Positions 2 through 9,092 of a DNA stretch of 64,000 nt are shown in pieces. The stretch's first letter is position 1. Each line of letters begins with the position of its first letter. This stretch comes from Methylomicrobium agile (GTDB lineage Bacteria > Pseudomonadota > Gammaproteobacteria > Methylococcales > Methylomonadaceae). The DNA is taken from NCBI RefSeq assembly GCF_000733855.1, contig NZ_JPOJ01000001.1:1488001-1552000 (forward strand), given 5' to 3'. The notes below the pieces were generated by a model, which searched no databases, was not told the DNA's origin, and was given only the letters and a program-made list of their open reading frames with translations. The position numbers and the translations under genes are program-made.

Positions 2-700
2 CGCGAGTTTGCCGGGCTCGATGCGGGCGAGGACGCCCTGCCGGATGAAACCACGATCCTCAAGTTCCGGCATCTGCTGGAACGCCATCAGTTAGCACAA
101 ACCCTATTTGATGAAACGGCGGCGCTGTTGGCCGAAAAAGGCCTGTTGCTACGGCAAGGCACGATCGTCGATGCGACATTAATCGCTGCCCCGCCGTCCA
201 CCAAGAACCGGGCGCGCAAACGGGATGCCGAGATGAGTTCGACCAAGAAAGGGAACAATTACCACTTTGGGATGAAGGCGCACATTGGGGTCGATGCCGA
301 GTCGGGGTTGGTGCATACTGTGGAGATGACCACCGCCAAGGTGGCGGATGGGGTCATGACGGAGGCGTTGCTGCACGGCGAGGAACGGGTCGTGCTGGGC
401 GATCGGGCCTATACCCGCAAGGACCGGAATCTGGCGGCGGATCGCCTGGAAGGTGAGCCGGTTTGGGCCTTTCCGTTCAAGCGGGGGAAGGGTGAGGAGT
501 TGCCGGTAGAGCAAGCCCTTCACAACCACATGCTGGCGCCGTTACGCGCCATGGTCGAACATCCGTTCCGGATCGTCAAGCGCCAGTTCGGCTATACCAA
601 AGTGCGTTACCGGGGGCTGTTCAAGAATGCCCAACAACTCTACTTGCTGTTTGCCCTGGGCAATCTTTATCACGTTCGGCAGGCGCTGCAGCCGACCTAG
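2..700 (+). CDS. IS5-family transposase, 5' end cut by window edge
   Basis: DDE transposase that moves its own insertion sequence. The frame is open from base 2, so the N-terminus lies outside the window; the TTG at 128 is internal. Visible family features are the DETTILKFRHLLERH helix, the first catalytic Asp in IVDATLI, a second Asp in VLGDRAYTRKDR, and the C-terminal Glu in RAMVEHPFRIVKRQFGY, which together form the IS5 catalytic triad. The C-terminus looks normal (stop at 698-700). The right end of the element probably lies between 700 and about 840, but without the left end I cannot define the inverted repeats. It differs from the second IS5-type element at 11849-12700, so it is not a copy of it. 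Confidence 0.9.
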   Translation, partial: REFAGLDAGEDALPDETTILKFRHLLERHQLAQTLFDETAALLAEKGLLLRQGTIVDATLIAAPPSTKNRARKRDAEMSSTKKGNNYHFGMKAHIGVDAESGLVHTVEMTTAKVADGVMTEALLHGEERVVLGDRAYTRKDRNLAADRLEGEPVWAFPFKRGKGEELPVEQALHNHMLAPLRAMVEHPFRIVKRQFGYTKVRYRGLFKNAQQLYLLFALGNLYHVRQALQPT

Positions 701-853
701 GGAGACCTTTGTCCTTCGCCCTGGAAAACCGAGAACACTGAGTGAAATCACCCCGATAGCGGGCGCTGCCGGGAAGGATTTGCCCATTTTCGGCGAGGTG
801 CCACGGATGTCGCACGGTGTCGCTTATAAAAACCACTTATTCAGAGCTTCCTT

Positions 854-897
854 AAAATCATTATTAATGATTTTACCGGTTAAAACATTGTTAACCG
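854..897. promoter_or_regulatory. Two perfect palindromes upstream of the ODP operon
   Basis: The gap between the IS5 remnant and the gene at 960 is AT-rich and holds two perfect inverted repeats. The first (854-874) has 10-bp arms, AAAATCATTA and its complement, around one base. The second has 7-bp arms CGGTTAA (877-883) and TTAACCG (891-897) separated by 7 bases. Their spacing fits operator sites for dimeric regulators controlling the sensory cluster downstream. The regulator is unknown; GGTTAA-N7-TTAACC resembles no site I can name with confidence. Confidence 0.5.
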
Positions 898-959: not shown

Positions 960-1739
960 ATGCGTAACATCAAATTGTTCGATTCCGGCGAACACAAATT
1001 CATCCTGCTGAATGAAAGCGAACCCGGCGAAGAAAGCGGGATTCGCTCCAATCAATATCTCATCGTGCATGAGGACAGTGGCGTGTTGCTCGATCCCGGC
1101 GGTTTCGGCGTGATGCCCAGCGTATTGACCGAATTGTTGCGCTATATCAAAACCGAACAGATCTGTGCGATCATTCTTTCCCATCAGGATCCCGATATCG
1201 TGGGCGGCTTGTCCACCTGGCTGGAACTGACCGATGCGCCGGTGTATGTATCGAATATCTGGATGCGTTTCCTGCCCCATTACGGTATCGCCAGCATGGC
1301 TCAATTTGTCGGCGTCCCCGATGCCGGGAAACAATGCACTATCGCGCCCGGGTTTCAACTGCAGCTCGTCCCTGCGCATTTTTTACATTCCGAAGGGCAG
1401 ATCAATGTCTACGATCCGCTTGCAAAAATTCTGTTCACCGGCGATATCGGCGCGGCAATGCTGCCGGTCGATCGCGAATATGAATTCGTCGACGATTTTG
1501 CAGCGCATTTGCCTTTTATCGAAGGCTTTCACCGCCGTTATATGGTATGCAACAAAGCCGCGCGGCTTTGGGTGGAAGCCGTATCGAAGCTGGATATTGA
1601 AATACTGGCACCCCAGCATGGGCCGATTTATCGAGGCCAGTCCGTCCCCGATTTTTTGAATTGGTTCAAGGAGCTGAAATGCGGCGTCGACCTGATGACG
1701 CACAGCGGCCATTTCGCGATGGGGAACTGGAATGAATAG
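960..1739 (+). CDS. ODP-type di-iron metallo-beta-lactamase-fold protein (copy 1)
   Basis: A 259-residue stand-alone domain related to the di-iron core of flavodiiron proteins, without the flavodoxin domain. Metal-ligand motifs are visible: SHQDPD (His75, Asp77, Asp79), PAHFLH (His140/143), FTGDIGA (Asp162) and APQHG (His220). Flavodiiron enzymes have H-x-E-x-D-H at the first site; here Glu is replaced by Asp and the last His by Ile, as expected for the ODP (oxygen-binding di-iron protein) group, which includes an O2/Fe sensor tied to chemotaxis in Treponema denticola. A sensing rather than reductase role is therefore inferred. The stop overlaps the start of the GGDEF-EAL gene by 8 bases, so the two are probably translationally coupled. 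A paralogue lies at 4618. Confidence 0.85.
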   Translation: MRNIKLFDSGEHKFILLNESEPGEESGIRSNQYLIVHEDSGVLLDPGGFGVMPSVLTELLRYIKTEQICAIILSHQDPDIVGGLSTWLELTDAPVYVSNIWMRFLPHYGIASMAQFVGVPDAGKQCTIAPGFQLQLVPAHFLHSEGQINVYDPLAKILFTGDIGAAMLPVDREYEFVDDFAAHLPFIEGFHRRYMVCNKAARLWVEAVSKLDIEILAPQHGPIYRGQSVPDFLNWFKELKCGVDLMTHSGHFAMGNWNE

Positions 1740-3891
1740 CGTTAAAGACACTGCGGCTTATCCTCATCATATCGAGGATTTACGCATACGCTTGATGAAC
1801 CAGCTCTTTTCCCTGCTGGAAAGCCAAAGCCGGACGCGGAGCTTCGCTTCGTCCATCAGCACTTTGGTCAAACGCCTTCACGGCAAGGGACTTGAAGAAT
1901 TCGAACGCGGTTTGGCGCGTATCGACGATCCATTAACCGTCGAAATGTTCCGGAATGCGATTACGGATTTTCGAAATCTGGATCTGGCATTCGATAAACT
2001 CGTCGATGAACGTCAGCGGCAATGGTATAAAAACGGCAAATACCTGAAGCAGGTGATCGACGAGCTTACCGAAACGACCGATTACCTGGCTTCGATTCTG
2101 GTCGAAAAAAGCCTGCTCGAACGGCAGAGCCAGGTTCTGGAAAACATCATCCTTTCGCACGAAAAAGTTTCGCAATGGAAGGAATTCGTTCAGGAAATAC
2201 TGGCCGGATTCCACAAGATTTTTCCATTCAATTTTTTTTTCATCGCGTTTGCCGAAGAACACGGACTGTCGTTGTATTTCTATTACATGGGCGAATACAA
2301 GGAAGAGGAAAAGCGCCAGGTCCGCATCCAGCTCGGCCAAAAAATGCTGCGGCAGCTGAATTTACCGAAGGATGTGCTTCTCGACATCGAGGAATACCAG
2401 ATTCCGGGCCACCTTCGGACCGCCGACCTTTCCGATATCAGGATGCTCACCGTGCCCGTTCCCGACCACGCTTACGGCCTGGATGGACTGCTCGGCGTTG
2501 CCTATGCTTCGGTCAATACCCTGACCGCGCAGGAACGGACGATCATAAGATCACTGCTCTCGGTTATGGTCATGGTGGTCGGGTCCAGCAAGGTGTTGAG
2601 CAGAACTTTGTCCGAACTCGAATACTATTCGGTCCACGATCCGTTGACCGGCATTCATAATCGCCGTTATTTCAACGAAATGCTGGAATACGAAGTGGGG
2701 CGTTCGTCGCGTCATCACCATCAGTTCGCGGTGTTATTGCTCGACCTCGATGATTTCAAGGAGATCAATGATACCTATGGCCATCCGTTGGGCGATGAAG
2801 TATTGAAGAAAATCGCCGAATCGATCACGTCCCACCTGCGCAAGGGCGATATCGCCACCCGCATGGGCGGCGACGAATTCGCGGTCATTCTCCCGGAAAC
2901 GCCGCCCGAGGGCGCCAAAATCGCCGCCGAGTCGATTCGGGCCAATTTGGAGAGCCTGGCTTTCAAATCGCCGAACGGCAAGGATTTTCACGTCACCACC
3001 TCGGTCGGCATCGTCAGTTATCCCAGGGACATGCAGACTGTCGAGGATTTGATGTCGGGCGTGGATGTCGCGCTGTACCAGGCAAAAGGTCTGGGTAAAA
3101 ACGAAGTATGCGAGTTCGATGCCGCCGCGCATTTAAAGCAAATCATGCGCGACAGTCGCTCCGTCGCCGAGGAATTGCGCCGGGCATTGCGCGAGGAACG
3201 CATTCAGCCCTACTTCCAACCGATCGTCGATTGCAAAAGCGGCGAAATATTCGCCTACGAATCGATCGCCCGGCTGCTTGAAACGGACGGCCGCGTCACG
3301 GTAGCCGGCCAATTCATCGAGACAATCGAGAAATACGGAATGGGACGCGAACTGGACCGGATCATGGTACGGAAAGTGATCGAAGCCAATCGGCAGATCA
3401 TTCATTCCCAAGGCAAACCCAAACGCTTGTTTATCAATTTGTCCGCCCAGGAAATCCAGGGCCGGGGCATTTTAGGCTACGCCGAAGAATTGTGCGCTCA
3501 GTTGGAAGTGCCGCCAAGCAGCATCGTGTTCGAAATTCTCGAGCGCGACGCGATCAGCGATATCACGCATATGGGCAAGTTCCTGACCAATCTCCGGAAA
3601 AAAGGCTTTGCGTTCGCGCTGGACGATTTCGGCAGCGGCTACAATTCGTTTCACTATCTTCGGGAACTGCGTTTCGAATATGTCAAGATAGACGGCGCCT
3701 TCGTACGCAATATCCTCAACTCGAAAATCGATCGGGCCTTGGTGCACAACCTGTCCCGTTTATGCCAGGAACTCGATATTTTGACGATCGGCGAATTCGT
3801 CGAATCTCAGGAAATCTTCGATCTATTGAAAGACATGGGCATCAACTTCGGACAAGGCTTTCATATCGGGCTGCCGCTGAACACTTTATGA
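1732..3891 (+). CDS. GGDEF-EAL c-di-GMP turnover protein
   Basis: A 719-residue cytoplasmic protein. Residues 1 to about 290 form a helical and probably GAF-like sensory part with no membrane segment. GGDEF follows at about 305-465 with an intact MGGDEF signature near residue 380, then an EAL domain from about 480 to the end. The EAL signature reads YESIARL, so the EAL triplet is ESI with the Glu kept. Other EAL residues are present: FINLSAQE, FEILERDAI, DDFGSGYNS and KIDGAF; the last loop is GEFVE instead of AEGVE. Diguanylate cyclase activity is likely; phosphodiesterase activity is possible but may be weakened. It starts inside the preceding ODP gene and its stop overlaps the next start (ATGA), so the three genes form one unit. 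Confidence 0.92.
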   Translation: MNSVKDTAAYPHHIEDLRIRLMNQLFSLLESQSRTRSFASSISTLVKRLHGKGLEEFERGLARIDDPLTVEMFRNAITDFRNLDLAFDKLVDERQRQWYKNGKYLKQVIDELTETTDYLASILVEKSLLERQSQVLENIILSHEKVSQWKEFVQEILAGFHKIFPFNFFFIAFAEEHGLSLYFYYMGEYKEEEKRQVRIQLGQKMLRQLNLPKDVLLDIEEYQIPGHLRTADLSDIRMLTVPVPDHAYGLDGLLGVAYASVNTLTAQERTIIRSLLSVMVMVVGSSKVLSRTLSELEYYSVHDPLTGIHNRRYFNEMLEYEVGRSSRHHHQFAVLLLDLDDFKEINDTYGHPLGDEVLKKIAESITSHLRKGDIATRMGGDEFAVILPETPPEGAKIAAESIRANLESLAFKSPNGKDFHVTTSVGIVSYPRDMQTVEDLMSGVDVALYQAKGLGKNEVCEFDAAAHLKQIMRDSRSVAEELRRALREERIQPYFQPIVDCKSGEIFAYESIARLLETDGRVTVAGQFIETIEKYGMGRELDRIMVRKVIEANRQIIHSQGKPKRLFINLSAQEIQGRGILGYAEELCAQLEVPPSSIVFEILERDAISDITHMGKFLTNLRKKGFAFALDDFGSGYNSFHYLRELRFEYVKIDGAFVRNILNSKIDRALVHNLSRLCQELDILTIGEFVESQEIFDLLKDMGINFGQGFHIGLPLNTL

Positions 3892-4502
3892 ATCATCAAA
3901 CCAAAACACAGTTCATTGCGGTGGCTTCCATCACCTCTGAATTAACCGCCGTTATATCGATATCGAAGGAAATTTCATTGGCTGCCGCAAACGCCAAAGC
4001 CATCGCATTCCGTGCCGGAGACAAAGCCAGGGGATTTCAGCCGATTACCGATTTCATCAATGATTTGGCGAAAGAGATGATACAAAATATCGAGATTATC
4101 AACGAACTGGCAACATCATTATGCCGGATAACGATCAAGGAATATCGAAAAACGGAAGCTTTCAATAAATTTGAATTGATTACCACCACGTGCGGCTCGG
4201 CGGTTCATGCCCATTCCATGCAAAAACCCTTGGCCGACGCGAAGGCTATAGTACAGAATTGTCAGCTGCAATTTAAGCGCGACGTCGCCCTGCTGATGGA
4301 TCATCTGGATACAGTAACGCAACATGCCAAAACGGCAGGAATTATTGCGACATACTCCAGAATCGAAGCGTCTCAGGCAGGCGAATACTTACAAAGTCTG
4401 CAAACCGTATCGAAAAGCGTGGATAACGCCGCCCGCAAAATACACGACCATGTACAACGCTGCATCATAGCCCTATCCCGGTTTGGTTCAGCCAACAAAT
4501 AA
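3888..4502 (+). CDS. Small soluble protein with two MCP-tip-like motifs
   Basis: A 204-residue all-helical protein starting at the ATG that overlaps the GGDEF-EAL stop (ATGA). There is no signal peptide, membrane segment, HAMP or ligand domain. Near residue 37 the stretch NAKAIAFRAGDKARGF resembles the NAAIEAARAGE-GRGF hairpin tip of methyl-accepting chemotaxis proteins, continuing as DFINDLAKEM like DEVRKLAEE. A second, more diverged copy (ATYSRIEASQAGEYLQSLQ) lies near residue 160. The tip is what binds CheA and CheW, so an adaptor or array-docking role is conceivable, but this is inference from motif resemblance. No che genes are in the window. It sits between the c-di-GMP gene and a second ODP gene. 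Confidence 0.6.
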   Translation: MNHQTKTQFIAVASITSELTAVISISKEISLAAANAKAIAFRAGDKARGFQPITDFINDLAKEMIQNIEIINELATSLCRITIKEYRKTEAFNKFELITTTCGSAVHAHSMQKPLADAKAIVQNCQLQFKRDVALLMDHLDTVTQHAKTAGIIATYSRIEASQAGEYLQSLQTVSKSVDNAARKIHDHVQRCIIALSRFGSANK

Positions 4503-4617
4503 AAGCTTGCCGCCCGTTGCACGGGTAACGGGTCGTCTTTCGAACTTGGGCGCCGACCTCGGTCAGGCCTTATCGGACATACATTATTAATCTGCCAAAA
4601 ACAGAGCCTCTCGTACC

Positions 4618-5349
4618 ATGAAATCGATCAATATTTATGAAGGATCTCAGCATCAATGGATCATGTTCGGCCGGGACAAAAACAAACCCGATAACATCAT
4701 CGATTCCAACCAATATATGGTACGTACGGCCAACCGCTGCCTGTTGCTCGATCCCGGAGGCTATGAACTGTTTGCTCCCATGATGGCGGCGGTTTTGCAT
4801 CATGCGCCTGTTGAACAAATTACCGATCTGTTTGCTTCACATCAGGACCCGGATGTCATTTCGTCGCTGAGTCTCTGGGATCAGGCACTGCCCCACGCCA
4901 AACTTCATGCTCCGAAAATCTGGGAGGGATTTTTACGGCATTACGGGTGTGAATCGATCGAATATGTTCCGATTGCCGATAATGGCGGCAGCCTCAAACT
5001 GGAGGCGATTGAGCTGCAGTTTATCCCGGCGCACTATCTGCATTCCTCGGGCAACTTTCACGTGTATGATCCGGAGGCAAAGATTTTGATGAGCGGCGAC
5101 ATCGGCGCCGCGCTCGAACCGGGGGAGGCGCCGCTATTCGTCGATGATTTCGAAGCGCATACGGAAAAAATGCGTTATTTCCACCAGCGTTGGATGCCCT
5201 CCAACCCAGCCAAAAAGACCTGGATCGAACGGGTTAGAAAACTGGATATCGAGATTCTGGCTCCGCAACACGGACGCATGTTCAAAGGTGACGATGTGGG
5301 GCGTTTCTTAGACTGGTTCGATGCTTTACAGGTCGGCATGGCAGTCTGA
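4618..5349 (+). CDS. ODP-type di-iron metallo-beta-lactamase-fold protein (copy 2)
   Basis: A 243-residue paralogue of the protein at 960 with the same ligand pattern: SHQDPD (His75, Asp77, Asp79), PAHYLH (His139/142), SGDIGA (Asp161) and APQHG near residue 219. The Ile after HQDPD in copy 1 is Val here, so this copy also lacks the sixth canonical flavodiiron ligand. A 115-base gap separates it from the MCP-tip protein, so it may have its own promoter. The divergence between the copies suggests different ligands or affinities (O2, NO, peroxide) rather than a recent duplication. A role as an oxygen or redox sensor is inferred from the ODP family. Confidence 0.85.
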   Translation: MKSINIYEGSQHQWIMFGRDKNKPDNIIDSNQYMVRTANRCLLLDPGGYELFAPMMAAVLHHAPVEQITDLFASHQDPDVISSLSLWDQALPHAKLHAPKIWEGFLRHYGCESIEYVPIADNGGSLKLEAIELQFIPAHYLHSSGNFHVYDPEAKILMSGDIGAALEPGEAPLFVDDFEAHTEKMRYFHQRWMPSNPAKKTWIERVRKLDIEILAPQHGRMFKGDDVGRFLDWFDALQVGMAV

Positions 5350-5642
5350 CTCTTCCAGAGAAAAAGCTTTATCGGCGTGGCCAAGGCGATCGCCCTCGCC
5401 GATCCGGGCGCGGTTTTCTGGTGCCGGGGCGCGACGTCGACGCCCGGCCGCCTGACAAGCGCCAGCTTCTATTTCAAAAAATGATTACTTCCCTACTCGG
5501 AAATCTCTGTGATGCGGCTTCAAATTCATGAGACAAGCAAGAGAATTGTGCAAAATTTCATCTAAAATTAAAGACATGGATGGAACCCTGGAGGGTTTGC
5601 CTATCTGAAGAATAAATGAGATTTTTTAATAAGGATGAAAGA
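5350..5642 (+). other. Gap between ODP copy 2 and HDOD gene, possible gene fossil
   Basis: About 290 bases without a convincing gene. A short open stretch on the plus strand near 5365-5483 has a coding-like composition (AKAIALADPGAVFW) but no start, and could be the relic of a lost gene. The last 130 bases are AT-rich and probably hold the HDOD promoter. Confidence 0.25.
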
Positions 5643-6494
5643 ATGAAATTAGCTTCACTTGAAACCGCCATTGATGTTATCAGTAACGAATTGGTAAACA
5701 ACAGTCCTTATCTGCCGACGCTACCCGACGTTGCCATCAACATTATGAACGCGGTTTCCAAAGAGGAAACTTCACCTAAGGATCTGGCTGCAATTATCCT
5801 CACCGATCCGGCGATATCGGCTCGTCTCATACGTGTGACGAACAGTCCGAAATTTCGGGGAAGAACCGAAATCTCCAATGTGCAGATGGCGGTGTTAAGG
5901 CTAGGCAACAACACGATCCGCACATTGGTCAGCAGCATGATCACCCAGCAACTGTTTGCGCCCTCCTCGAAATTTCTGGAAAACGAATTCAAGCAAATCT
6001 GGGAGCTGAGCAGGAATGTCTCTGCCGCCAGCCATTTCCTCTGCTCGTTTGCGCCTCACCTCGACCCCAATGAGGCCATACTTGCCGGACTCATTCACCA
6101 AGTAGGGAAATTGCCCATACTCATGATGATTGATCAATCCCCCGAATTTGAAGAGTTCAAAGAAAGCCCCACCCTCGTCGGTTTGCTGCTCGAACAAGCG
6201 CACGGCACCGCCGGCAAAATCGTGATGGATAAATTGAACTTTCCGGCGACGATAAAGCCGGTCGCCTCGGAATACAACAATTTCCGATACGATGCGGGAG
6301 CCAAGGCTGATTATGTAGACGTTGTGCAAGTCGCCTTTTTACAAAGCATTGCCGGAACCGACCATCCGGCCTGTCGAGTCGATTGCTCGATAGTGCCCGC
6401 TTTCGCCAAACTCGGACTCAGCTTCGACACCGAAACGATCACGCTCGAGAATATTTCGGACAACATCGAATTAGTCAATAGCCTTTTTGGATAA
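5643..6494 (+). CDS. HDOD-domain signalling protein
   Basis: A 283-residue protein made almost entirely of an HDOD domain, a catalytically dead HD relative found in bacterial signal transduction, often beside c-di-GMP and chemotaxis genes. Typical features are SPYLPTLPDVAINIMN near the N-terminus, the LAAIILTDPAISARLIRVTNS helix pair, MAVLRLGNNTIRTLV and the AGLIHQVGKLPI region where true HD proteins have catalytic His-Asp. An in-frame ATG lies 27 bases upstream, but the start at 5643 is preferred because AAGGA stands eight bases before it. It closes the ODP/GGDEF-EAL/MCP-tip cluster and may be an output or scaffold partner. Confidence 0.88.
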   Translation: MKLASLETAIDVISNELVNNSPYLPTLPDVAINIMNAVSKEETSPKDLAAIILTDPAISARLIRVTNSPKFRGRTEISNVQMAVLRLGNNTIRTLVSSMITQQLFAPSSKFLENEFKQIWELSRNVSAASHFLCSFAPHLDPNEAILAGLIHQVGKLPILMMIDQSPEFEEFKESPTLVGLLLEQAHGTAGKIVMDKLNFPATIKPVASEYNNFRYDAGAKADYVDVVQVAFLQSIAGTDHPACRVDCSIVPAFAKLGLSFDTETITLENISDNIELVNSLFG

Positions 6495-6612
6495 TCAATC
6501 CTAGCCGCCTGCCCAACGAGCAATCTGACAAACGCTTCCGGAGCCGCTTCGACAAGATCGCCGCTTTTTTTGTTTGGCGGGAATGCCGCATCCCCGCATC
6601 CTCTTGCCGTAT

Positions 6613-6679
6613 TTATTTTTTAATCGAATCATGAATTTTTTTCGCCAGCGCCTCGATGCCTCGCTGCGAAACTTTTTCG
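6613..6679 (-). pseudogene. 3' end of the DUF3280-like gene, cut off by IS66
   Basis: On the minus strand this stretch reads VSQRGIEALAKKIHDSIKK and then a stop at 6613-6615. It joins in frame to the gene body at 9139-9577 if the IS66 element and one copy of the 8-bp target repeat are removed (ELKGSHEK followed by VSQRGIEAL). It is therefore the original C-terminus of that protein, about 2.5 kb away from the rest. Confidence 0.9.
6672..6679. repeat. Left target-site duplication of IS66 (CTTTTTCG)
   Basis: The 8 bases CTTTTTCG directly precede the left end of the IS66 element and are repeated exactly at 9139-9146 after its right end. Eight-base duplications are characteristic of the IS66 family. 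Confidence 0.95.
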
Positions 6680-6757
6680 GTAAGCGTCCATCCGAGCCAC
6701 CTATAAAATAGTTTTCGTCTGCGGCATCCTGTGATTTTTTTGATCAGGAGTTTTAGC

Positions 6758-7045
6758 ATGGCCATCACAGCGAAATGGCGTCAGCATATCGAAGCGTGGC
6801 AACGCAGTGGTTTGTCGCAAGCCGCGTATTGCGCAGCACAGCAACTCAATGTCCGTACGTTCACAGCACGGCTGAGCGATTATCGCAAATTACCCAAGCA
6901 GGATTCGACGGCCTTGATACCGGTGCAGATTCAACCGGCTGTCACTGAGGTCATTGTCTTTACCCATGCTCAGGGCCATCGCCTGGAACTGCCGGCTTCG
7001 ATGCCGGCGAGTTGGCTCGCGGAGCTGTTGCGATGCCTGGCCTGA
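6758..7045 (+). CDS. tnpA: IS66 accessory protein TnpA (Orf1)
   Basis: A 95-residue protein with an N-terminal helix-turn-helix typical of IS66 Orf1: AKWRQHIEAWQRSGLSQAAYC followed by a downstream beta-rich tail. It is needed together with TnpB for transposition in IS66 elements, though its role is not well defined. The start at 6758 is chosen over the GTG at 6731 because AGGAG stands seven bases before it. Its stop overlaps the start of tnpB by 13 bases. Confidence 0.9.
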   Translation: MAITAKWRQHIEAWQRSGLSQAAYCAAQQLNVRTFTARLSDYRKLPKQDSTALIPVQIQPAVTEVIVFTHAQGHRLELPASMPASWLAELLRCLA

Positions 7046-7383
7046 TCGCGAGCCCGGCACAGATTTGGCTGGCGGTGGCGCCGGTCGACATGCGGCGCGG
7101 CCTGGATGGCTTAACCACGATCGTGCAGCAGAGCCTGGGTCATTCGCCGTGTGCTGGGTCGGCCTTCATCTTCCGCAACCGTGCCGGCAACCGCTTGCGC
7201 CTGTTGCTGTGGGACGGCAATGGCGTGTGGCTCTGTCAGCGGCGCTTGCATCGAGGCAGTTTTGTCTGGCCCCAGGCCTCTGATCCGGTGTTTGCGATCA
7301 GTCCGGCCCAGTGGCAGTGGTTGGCCGCCGGTGTCGATTGGCAACGGTTATCGGCTCAACCCTCGGCGGAATGGCGAGTCTGA
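7033..7383 (+). CDS. tnpB: IS66 accessory protein TnpB (Orf2)
   Basis: A 116-residue member of the IS66 Orf2 family. The hallmark IWLAVAPVDMRRGLDGL is at residues 11-27, followed by the AFIFRNRAGNRLRLLLWDGNG segment and a conserved RRLHRGSFVWP block. The first ATG (7033) is preferred to an upstream TTG at 7012. Together with TnpA it assists the TnpC transposase. It lies 74 bases upstream of tnpC. Confidence 0.92.
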   Translation: MPGLIASPAQIWLAVAPVDMRRGLDGLTTIVQQSLGHSPCAGSAFIFRNRAGNRLRLLLWDGNGVWLCQRRLHRGSFVWPQASDPVFAISPAQWQWLAAGVDWQRLSAQPSAEWRV

Positions 7384-7457
7384 TGTTAACGATAAAATCC
7401 TCTTGAACATCAGTCATATCAAGGCTTTCAGGGGATGAGTGCGGTATAATATCCCCC

Positions 7458-9092
7458 ATGAATTTGCTCGCTGAACTCGATCAACTCAACCTGGAACCGG
7501 CCGCTAAAGCCCAAGTCGCGGCAATGCTTCAGACGCTTGTCGAGCAAGCGGCGCAGGATGCTCAAACCATTGCGAATCAGCAGCAACTCCTGCAAACGAA
7601 GGACGCCAGCCTGCAAGCCAAAGAGGTCAAAATCGCCGCGCTGACGCACGAGTTGGCCTATTACAAGCGCATCCGTTTCAGTACCAAGAGCGAAGCCTTG
7701 GCTCCGCTGCAGCGGGATGTCTTCGAGGAAACCTGGAACACGGATATTTCGGCGATTGAAGCCGAAGTCGAGCAACTGCAGGATGACAGCCCTTGTGCAA
7801 CGGTGGCTCGTCCGAAACGCCTGCGTGCCGGTCGTCAGCTGTTGCCCGCTCACTTGCCCCGCGTCGAGCACCGGCATGAACCCGAGTCCTGCACCTGCGG
7901 GCACTGCGGCCGGGACTTGGTCAAGATCGGCGAGGATGTGACCGAGCAACTGGACGTCGAGCCGGCCAAGTTCTTCGTGCATCGGCACATCCGCCCGCAA
8001 TATGCCTGCCGGCGCTGTGAAACCGTGACCGCGGCGCCGATTCCGCCGGCGGTGATCGATGGCGGCATGGCGGCGGTCGGTTTGTTGAGTTGGGTGATGA
8101 TCAGTAAATTTCTGGATCACCTGCCGCTGTACCGGTTGGAACAGATCGCTGCCCGCGACGGCGTAACCTTGTCCCGCTCCACCCTGGCCGACTGGGTCGG
8201 ACGCCTCGGCGTCGCCTTAGAGCCTTTGGCAGACCGTCTGGCCTGGCACCTCTTGCAACGCGATTGCCTGCATGCGGATGAGACGCCGGTGCCGCAATTG
8301 GATCCCGGCAACGGCAAAACGAAAAAGGCCTATTTGTGGGCGTATCGCAGCAACGACTTGCAGCCGGGACCGAAGATCCTCGTCTTCGACTATCAAGCCG
8401 GCCGCAGCGGCCGGCATGCGCAGCAGTTTCTGCAAGACTGGCAAGGCCACCTCGTCGTCGACGACTATGCCGGCTACAAAGCCCTGTTTGCGGCCGCCCG
8501 CGCGCATCCCGAGGATCAACGCCTGCTTGAACCGTGCATCGAGCTCGCCTGTTGGGCGCATGCACGGCGGAAATTCTTCGACTTGTTCCAGGCCAGCCAG
8601 AGCCCGATCGCGCACGAAGCCTTGAACCGCATCGCGGTGCTGTATGCGATTGAAGCCGAAGGGAGTGACCTAACGCCCGATGGGCGCCAAGCCCTGCGTG
8701 TCGAAAAAACGCTGCCGACCTTGGCAGCCTTCCACGACTGGCTTCAGCAAACCCGTTTGCGCACCGCGCCCGGCAGTGCCACCGCCAAAGCGATCGACTA
8801 CAGTTTGAAGCGATGGGCTGCGCTCACGCGCTACGCCGAGACTGGTGATCTGCCGATCGACAATAACCCGATCGAAAACAGCATTCGTCCGATTGCATTG
8901 GGCAAAAAAAACTGGTTGTTCGTAGGCTCCGAACGCGCCGGCCAGCGTGCCGCCATCATTCAAACCTTGCTCGGCACCGCCAAGCTCAACGGGTTCGATC
9001 CAGCGGTATGGCTAAAAGAAACCCTGGAAAAGCTCCCAACTTGGCCCAACAGTCGCATCGACGAGCTTCTGCCTCTTCGCTTCGCGGATTAA
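7458..9092 (+). CDS. tnpC: IS66-family transposase TnpC
   Basis: A 544-residue full-length transposase. Residues 1-90 form the N-terminal coiled-coil/leucine-zipper region. A zinc-binding domain follows (CTCGHCGRDL near 141 and CRRCET near 184), then the DDE core: LHADETPVPQLD (first Asp), HLVVDDYAGYKAL (second Asp), and NNPIENSIRPIALGKKNW carrying the catalytic Glu. The C-terminal IS66 segment ending LLPLRFAD is present. No frameshift or stop is visible, so the enzyme should be functional. Confidence 0.97.
   Translation: MNLLAELDQLNLEPAAKAQVAAMLQTLVEQAAQDAQTIANQQQLLQTKDASLQAKEVKIAALTHELAYYKRIRFSTKSEALAPLQRDVFEETWNTDISAIEAEVEQLQDDSPCATVARPKRLRAGRQLLPAHLPRVEHRHEPESCTCGHCGRDLVKIGEDVTEQLDVEPAKFFVHRHIRPQYACRRCETVTAAPIPPAVIDGGMAAVGLLSWVMISKFLDHLPLYRLEQIAARDGVTLSRSTLADWVGRLGVALEPLADRLAWHLLQRDCLHADETPVPQLDPGNGKTKKAYLWAYRSNDLQPGPKILVFDYQAGRSGRHAQQFLQDWQGHLVVDDYAGYKALFAAARAHPEDQRLLEPCIELACWAHARRKFFDLFQASQSPIAHEALNRIAVLYAIEAEGSDLTPDGRQALRVEKTLPTLAAFHDWLQQTRLRTAPGSATAKAIDYSLKRWAALTRYAETGDLPIDNNPIENSIRPIALGKKNWLFVGSERAGQRAAIIQTLLGTAKLNGFDPAVWLKETLEKLPTWPNSRIDELLPLRFAD

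Follow-up and report, generated by a model that had tools for sequence, protein, structure and literature searches.

Within a 64,000-nucleotide stretch of the Methylomicrobium agile genome (contig NZ_JPOJ01000001.1, positions 1,488,001 to 1,552,000; in the following called the window), five consecutive genes on the plus strand encode a stand-alone di-iron protein of the ODP family (ODP1), a GGDEF-EAL protein, a small protein resembling the tips of MCP chemoreceptors (MCPL), a second ODP protein (ODP2) and an HDOD protein. Judged by sequence comparison, this cluster is composed of two separately conserved pairs, ODP1 with the GGDEF-EAL protein (pair 1) and MCPL with ODP2 (pair 2), plus a loosely attached HDOD gene, and is not one conserved five-gene module. 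We consider it probable (roughly 0.6) that two older two-gene sensor units have here become a genus-level gene string, in which ODP1 would gate the turnover of cyclic di-GMP (c-di-GMP) and ODP2, via MCPL, would bias the chemotaxis array, both according to the oxygen (O2) or iron state.

An earlier reading made from the letters of the DNA (the sequence-only reading) had described five consecutive same-strand genes, and all five were confirmed at their places, each with a Pfam match above the curated cut-off (27.2 bits for ODP, 34.6 bits for MCPsignal) except MCPL:

960..1739, plus strand: ODP1, stand-alone di-iron ODP domain, 259 amino acids (Pfam ODP 242.8 bits, E 3.6e-72)
1732..3891, plus strand: GGDEF-EAL protein, 719 amino acids (Pfam GGDEF 175.8 bits, EAL 217.3 bits)
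1732..2601, plus strand: N-terminal region of the GGDEF-EAL protein, predicted long helices followed by a GAF-like fold
3888..4502, plus strand: MCPL, 204 amino acids, soluble, two-hairpin, MCP-tip-like (MCPsignal below threshold)
3963..4085, plus strand: first chemoreceptor-tip motif of MCPL (residues 26-66, hhalign)
4323..4439, plus strand: second chemoreceptor-tip motif of MCPL (residues 146-184, hhalign)
4618..5349, plus strand: ODP2, stand-alone di-iron ODP domain, 243 amino acids (Pfam ODP 245.1 bits, E 6.9e-73)
5643..6494, plus strand: HDOD protein, open frame from 5616 (Pfam HDOD 124.8 bits, E 4.1e-36)

The overlaps previously noted among the first three genes are exact: ODP1 and the GGDEF-EAL gene share 8 bases (1732-1739), and the latter joins MCPL by ATGA (3888-3891). 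Both overlaps recur in the sister genome G027, the only other genome of this genus. The joins toward the 3′ side are looser, with 115 bases ahead of ODP2 and 266-293 ahead of the HDOD gene, whose likelier start is 5643, as in G027.

We searched a sample of 201 genomes of the family and obtained matches to ODP1 in 114 and to MCPL in 103 of them; according to our own reading of the match list, the ODP1 type proper (at least 56% identity) occurs in 50 genomes. A homolog of the GGDEF-EAL gene adjoins ODP1 in all 30 family loci that were fetched (L003-L032, the window's own included). A named scan gave 80 loci, including some from Methylobacter, Methylomonas and other methane oxidizers; the first 40 loci were examined for pair 1 (L158-L197; ODP1 identity 52-75%). 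The GGDEF-EAL gene lies directly downstream on the same strand in 40 of these 40, and hosts include Methylobacter, Gallionella, Ferrovum, Methylotenera and Azoarcus. Six of the 40 represent the same DNA as family loci, several partners end at contig ends (the one in L194 is also split into two frames), and for those in L188, L196 and L197 the alignment begins only at residue 86-105.

Pair 2 is similarly stable. Of the 30 family loci fetched for MCPL, 29 have ODP2 downstream of it, and in the thirtieth the contig ends 139 bases past the match; the 20 loci fetched from other families, three of which (L123, L132 and L134) match MCPL by profile only, all show the same order. From a class-level sample of 369 genomes, 30 loci were fetched; 22 of these contain a full-length MCPL match, always with an ODP gene next to it (22/22), and the home family accounts for two of the 22. 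The remaining eight are long receptor-like frames without an adjacent ODP, and one further full-length match (G427) lies outside the fetched loci. The best E-values separate the two groups: among the 264 class genomes with any match, 22 stand apart at 1e-21 or better and the rest reach 6.5e-16 or worse, including the eight fetched loci, which are ordinary receptors. An ODP gene adjoining a gene for a soluble receptor-like protein, the kind of pair described in Treponema denticola, is therefore present here.

The fidelity of ODP proteins to their partners was analyzed in a tree of 152 ODP rows, from which rows below 215 amino acids, alignments below 200 residues, duplicates and the loci L035-L062 had been left out. 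The GGDEF-EAL label changed twice along the tree (shuffled mean 49.5) and the MCPL label three times (36.9), as low as in none of 500 shuffles, although near-copies among the rows favor such clustering. A few labels were wrong: L205 (Aquificaceae) was set as MCPL, though its near-twin L200 has a downstream MCP, and L084 as an upstream MCP, though MCPL precedes its ODP2. In L199, within the GGDEF-EAL clade, GGDEF and EAL are in split frames. By sequence, each ODP thus belongs to a clade largely keeping its partner type.

In all four Allopseudospirillum, Oceanospirillum and Marinospirillum loci (L219, L230, L235 and L236; about positions 4000-7900), we observed two consecutive ODP genes and then a gene for an HD-GYP-type protein. 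These proteins have an HD_5 match and the motif HHExxDGxGYP, and their ODPs form a separate branch, which supports an attachment of ODPs to c-di-GMP control more than once.

The two pairs meet only in the window genus, in both of its two genomes, among the genomes examined. Both pairs are present in 45 family genomes, 43 of which have them on different contigs or separated by 60 kb or more. Fourteen of the 45 have them on one contig, at ~2.9 kb from start to start in the two genomes of the window genus and at 60 kb to 3.9 Mb in the other 12; the pairs may still be close together in some of the 31 genomes that have them on different contigs, since these are draft assemblies. The sequence-only reading had named conservation of the five-gene order in relatives as one test of its proposal, and when run on the family genomes this order failed outside the genus. 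We therefore rejected a conserved five-gene module; what stands of the proposed gas- or redox-sensing module is the proximity of two ODP-type sensors to one c-di-GMP-type and one chemotaxis-type output. The HDOD gene was likewise rejected as a core part. Relatives (E-value 1e-40) occur in 31 of 61 genomes, two of them of the window genus, and the other 29 (42-58% identity) place them 137 kb or more from either pair, if not on a separate contig; in three of these 29 genomes (G028, G054 and G056) no pair was found. The spacing between ODP2 and HDOD also differs, with 293 bases in the window versus 524 in G027. Because it adjoins the cluster only in the window genus among the genomes examined, HDOD is probably not a core part.

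Two independent sensor pairs may also have become adjacent by rearrangement, near each other without a shared purpose, and we grant this explanation a substantial chance, somewhat short of even. It agrees with the distance between the pairs in 43 of 45 genomes (31 of them split in draft assemblies), with the restriction of the junction to two genomes of one genus and with the insertion sequences flanking the window copy; against it stand the ATGA junction, shared by both genomes of the genus, and the co-occurrence of ODP1 and MCPL in excess of the CheW background. CheW was found in 102 of 103 genomes with MCPL (the one lacking CheW is a partial hit) versus 59 of 98 without MCPL (Fisher 1.4e-13, uncorrected for kinship) and in 50 of 50 genomes with the ODP1 type; within the 161 CheW genomes, the co-occurrence of ODP1 and MCPL reached 7.9e-7, likewise uncorrected for kinship.

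The surroundings of the cluster differ between the two genomes. Insertion-sequence genes lie on both sides in the window (2-856 and 6731-9092), the upstream one being:

2..856, plus strand: insertion-sequence copy (DDE_Tnp_1 transposase at 2-700)

This repeat stops at about 856, 103 bases 5′ of ODP1. Positions 851-975 share 92% identity with the sequence of G027 that leads up to and enters ODP1, so that a native upstream region may remain. Upstream, G027 instead has a gene for a 1523-amino acid protein and genes reading like dnaN, recF and gyrB. No tRNA was found in the window, and the window genome has a size of 4.5 Mb.

MCPL shows how pair 2 might be connected to chemotaxis. Its MCPsignal match (22.8 bits, E 9.1e-5) remains below the Pfam cut-off for an MCP, but receptor-tip hairpin sequence was found in both halves; all 32 aligned members match MCPsignal at E 0.01 or better (best 1.3e-10). 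Compared with 29 MCP tips by hhalign, tip 1 (residues 26-66) reached 98.4% (E 4.7e-15, score 79.0) and tip 2 (residues 146-184), which is seven residues shorter after the turn, 92.1% (E 6.2e-7, score 39.5). As controls, 100 column shuffles scored at most 18.6 (tip 1) and 17.8 (tip 2), reversed tip 2 scored 18.2, and no more than 17.9 was reached by two helical stretches taken from the GGDEF-EAL protein. The second half compared with a smaller set of 11 receptor tips gave 73% (E 3.1e-5), and the match of half against half is weak alone (25%, E 7.5e-4). The previous description as an MCP-tip-like protein holds up, with a sub-threshold MCPsignal match, and understated how unusual the protein is, both halves being tip-related.

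AlphaFold2 modeled MCPL as four helices (3-47, 50-102, 109-161 and 165-203; pLDDT 87.1, pTM 0.77), with turns at 48-49 and 162-164 coinciding with the two tip motifs. In this model the protein looks like two helical hairpins in one chain, both related to chemoreceptor tips, and the order of the helices would place both tips at the same end. Its highest 19-residue hydropathy is 1.42 (family maximum 1.79), without a strongly hydrophobic stretch. Fold searches with the model ranked designed single-chain four-helix bundles first (VIA Z 17.9, root-mean-square deviation 2.0, 174 aligned), and the T. maritima receptor 2ch7 only at position 38 (Foldseek E 0.28). No receptor-tip dimer was among the matches, as expected for a search done chain by chain. 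All 31 aligned members have Asn35 and Arg42 in tip 1, with Ile39 at what we take to be the position of the receptor-tip Glu, and Glu160 in tip 2, with Gln163 at the presumed receptor Arg position; we presume that several of the changed residues contact CheA, CheW or neighboring receptors in well-studied receptors. Entry of MCPL into arrays is uncertain because these contact residues are changed.

Eight more distant MCPL-like proteins all have Asn35 and Glu160, while Arg42 occurs in one of eight and a Glu at position 39 in one. A distant relative of MCPL was noticed in six loci (L093, L094, L095, L097, L111 and L112), doubled in L093 and L094. A third ODP type (ODP3) adjoins it in five of the six, L111 stopping before any ODP; che genes neighbor this pair in three loci (L093, L095 and L112) and do not in L097.

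We read 15 MCPL-ODP2 loci in full (L083-L092, L096 and L098-L101), where gene names are our reading of the sequences and not database matches. Pair 2 directly follows a CheB-like gene in six of them (L088-L092 and L096), preceded in the fullest cases by genes for CheW, ParA-like, STAS, CheR and CheD-like proteins, and it lies further along a che cluster in three (L083, L084 and L100). In the window genome, the one main che cluster encodes CheA and a PAS/poly-HAMP receptor without a strongly hydrophobic stretch. This receptor (L108:14177-16477) was the single MCPsignal match in our search of that genome, and its McpB_HAMP_2 match suggests that it may resemble the McpB/Aer2 type.

From these features, we tentatively suggest that MCPL could be a single-chain mimic of a chemoreceptor-tip dimer with unequal tips, with a conserved Arg in one and a conserved Glu in the other, through which a soluble di-iron O2 sensor might gain access to receptor arrays or destabilize them; if co-transcribed in the window genus with an ODP-controlled c-di-GMP enzyme, it might put both outputs under one gas. 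A genuine competitor to array entry, which we hold to be less likely than not, is that MCPL serves ODP2 as a tip-derived helical adaptor acting on something other than chemoreceptor arrays. The changed contact residues (their roles being our assumption), the generic four-helix bundle returned by the fold search and the tol-pal/que-like neighbors of pair 2 in five of 15 loci are all compatible with such an adaptor; its position in or near che clusters in nine of 15 and the near-perfect co-occurrence of MCPL with CheW speak for arrays.

Both ODP1 and ODP2 belong to the ODP family PF19583 by Pfam score and by ligand pattern, which in ODP1 reads H75-Q-D77-P-D79 ... H140 ... D162 ... H220. In an alignment of 14 rows, among them the 6qrq sequence, the H-Q-D-P-D motif and the subsequent H, D and H show no variation (14/14). 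The best structure matches of both proteins, which are ~42% identical to each other, are the solved ODPs 6qrq and 6qnm (phmmer to 6qrq: 1.2e-80 for ODP1, 8.2e-64 for ODP2). These two closest solved ODPs also have HQDPD with the last His lost, whereas the flavodiiron proteins 1ycf and 2q9u have H-x-E-x-D-H at the position where ODP2 has H-Q-D-P-D-V. The lost His and the change from Glu to Asp are therefore a signature of the ODP family, so that the motif had been read correctly but its interpretation as altered ligands, as well as a novel ligand loss, was rejected. Different affinities of the two sensors, also proposed earlier, were not supported. A flavodoxin domain after the di-iron domain is absent from both proteins (259 and 243 amino acids), to which only ODP and beta-lactamase-type models match, placing them outside the flavodiiron proteins. 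That the ODPs are di-iron enzymes protecting their partners, for example by scavenging O2, NO or peroxide, is improbable, given the missing flavodoxin domain, the His ligand lost as in solved ODPs and the strict partnering with signaling genes, and despite a distant relation to flavodiiron NO/O2 reductases.

The partner of ODP1 qualifies as a GGDEF-EAL enzyme by its catalytic motifs. All 20 aligned sequences retain GGDEF, an I-site-like RxxD and, in the EAL domain, DDFG, K, QG and the E of the signature, while the exact letters EAL occur in three of the 20, the window protein not among them; the roles of the GGDEF, RxxD and EAL-domain motifs are those we presume for such proteins. Residues 1-304 gave no Pfam family match at E 0.1. 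AlphaFold2 predicted helices at 12-61 and 67-163, followed by strands and helices at 168-302, which by their order we read as a probable GAF-like fold. The N-terminal region is a candidate contact site for ODP1. Twelve partial matches to this region (L146-L157) lie in open frames of 866-1106 codons, with no ODP in their fetched flanks. In the eight of these longer relatives that were inspected, a strong membrane stretch was seen in 8/8 and CxxCH (residues 139-169) in 7/8, possibly heme-binding by its sequence.

We propose that the whole string, with HDOD regarded as a neighbor, is probably one operon. ODP1, as a cytoplasmic di-iron protein, would convey the state of O2 (or of iron or redox) to the GGDEF-EAL protein, the product of the overlapping gene. 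The most likely route is docking of ODP1 on the helices and the GAF-like part at the N-terminus of that protein, and the balance between synthesis and breakdown of c-di-GMP would shift as a result. ODP2 would report the O2, iron or redox state to MCPL, whose single chain is predicted to fold into two receptor-tip hairpins; MCPL would insert into the chemosensory array or disturb it, and so alter the output of CheA. With both pairs on one transcript, one gas signal could set swimming and c-di-GMP together. The binding of metal and O2, the contacts between ODPs and partners and the direction of regulation are likewise proposed here, the steps from gas to output being drawn from passages on the Treponema system and from the gene anatomy.

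Several observations weigh against this proposal. The whole gene string is known from two genomes only, and the borders of its transcript are not marked by promoter or terminator patterns exceeding chance (7 promoter hits versus a shuffled mean of 5.7; 6 terminator hits versus 7.2). AlphaFold modeled the N-terminus of the GGDEF-EAL protein only weakly (pLDDT 70.7, pTM 0.42), and several tip residues of MCPL are changed at presumed contact positions for CheA, CheW or neighboring receptors. Pair 2 was located beside tol-pal and queCE-like genes in five of the 15 loci, from two genera (L085-L087, L098 and L099), and beside neither these nor che genes in one (L101); the main che cluster of the window genome lacks MCPL-ODP2. 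Finally, ODP1 is equally tied to CheW, so that co-occurrence with CheW does not single out MCPL.

If our interpretation is true, a family of soluble non-heme O2 sensors has been coupled twice, on separate branches, to enzymes of c-di-GMP (GGDEF-EAL and HD-GYP) and also, via an unusual double-tip adaptor, to chemotaxis. Methane oxidizers inhabit crossing gradients of O2 and methane, and these genes would then be testable candidates for the choice between swimming and settling.

In published work, ODP is reported to bind iron and oxygen and to act on soluble receptors (PMC6978683), and T. denticola arrays change in CheA order when it is lost (PMC7666581). Operons combining ODPs with MCP genes, in two orders, or with other signaling genes were described by Muok et al. 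2019, as summarized in a TREND case study (PMC7319448), so that the statement of the sequence-only reading that no such system is described was too strong. Pair 2 resembles the T. denticola ODP (TDE2498) with its soluble MCP TDE2496, a stand-alone ODP and a receptor-like partner without membrane or sensing part (PMC7666581, PMC6978683). In T. putidum, a relative of T. denticola, the order is ODP followed by MCP. The six Treponema-type partners differ from MCPL in length (281-314 versus 204 amino acids) and in following rather than preceding the ODP. In four of the six, one G-[RK]-G-F tip motif was located near the middle (residues 154-188), whereas MCPL has two tip motifs, and the one partner scanned, in L206, exceeds the MCPsignal cut-off (85.8 bits), which MCPL does not. 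Pair 1 fits, in general, the group of ODPs with signaling genes in the TREND case study, the main text of which does not contain the term GGDEF (PMC7319448). Hemerythrin-coupled c-di-GMP enzymes (VcBhr-DGC and Ferrovum Bhr-HD-GYP) resemble pair 1 in a non-heme di-iron control of c-di-GMP by O2 or redox state; hemerythrin is, however, fused to its enzyme, whereas ODP1 is a separate protein of another family, and the hemerythrin review lacks "diiron" and "Muok" and has "di-iron" once, for hemerythrin (PMC8846402). Literature searches on ODP, ODP with diguanylate cyclase, methanotroph chemotaxis and single-chain receptors, returning mostly the beginnings of abstracts, yielded nothing recognizable on the composition of this cluster. 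The association of ODPs with MCP or other signaling genes is thus a known theme, of which the arrangement described here is a variant; within the literature searched, the two tips of MCPL, the deep partnership between ODP1 and the GGDEF-EAL protein and the joining of both pairs into one string appear to be new.

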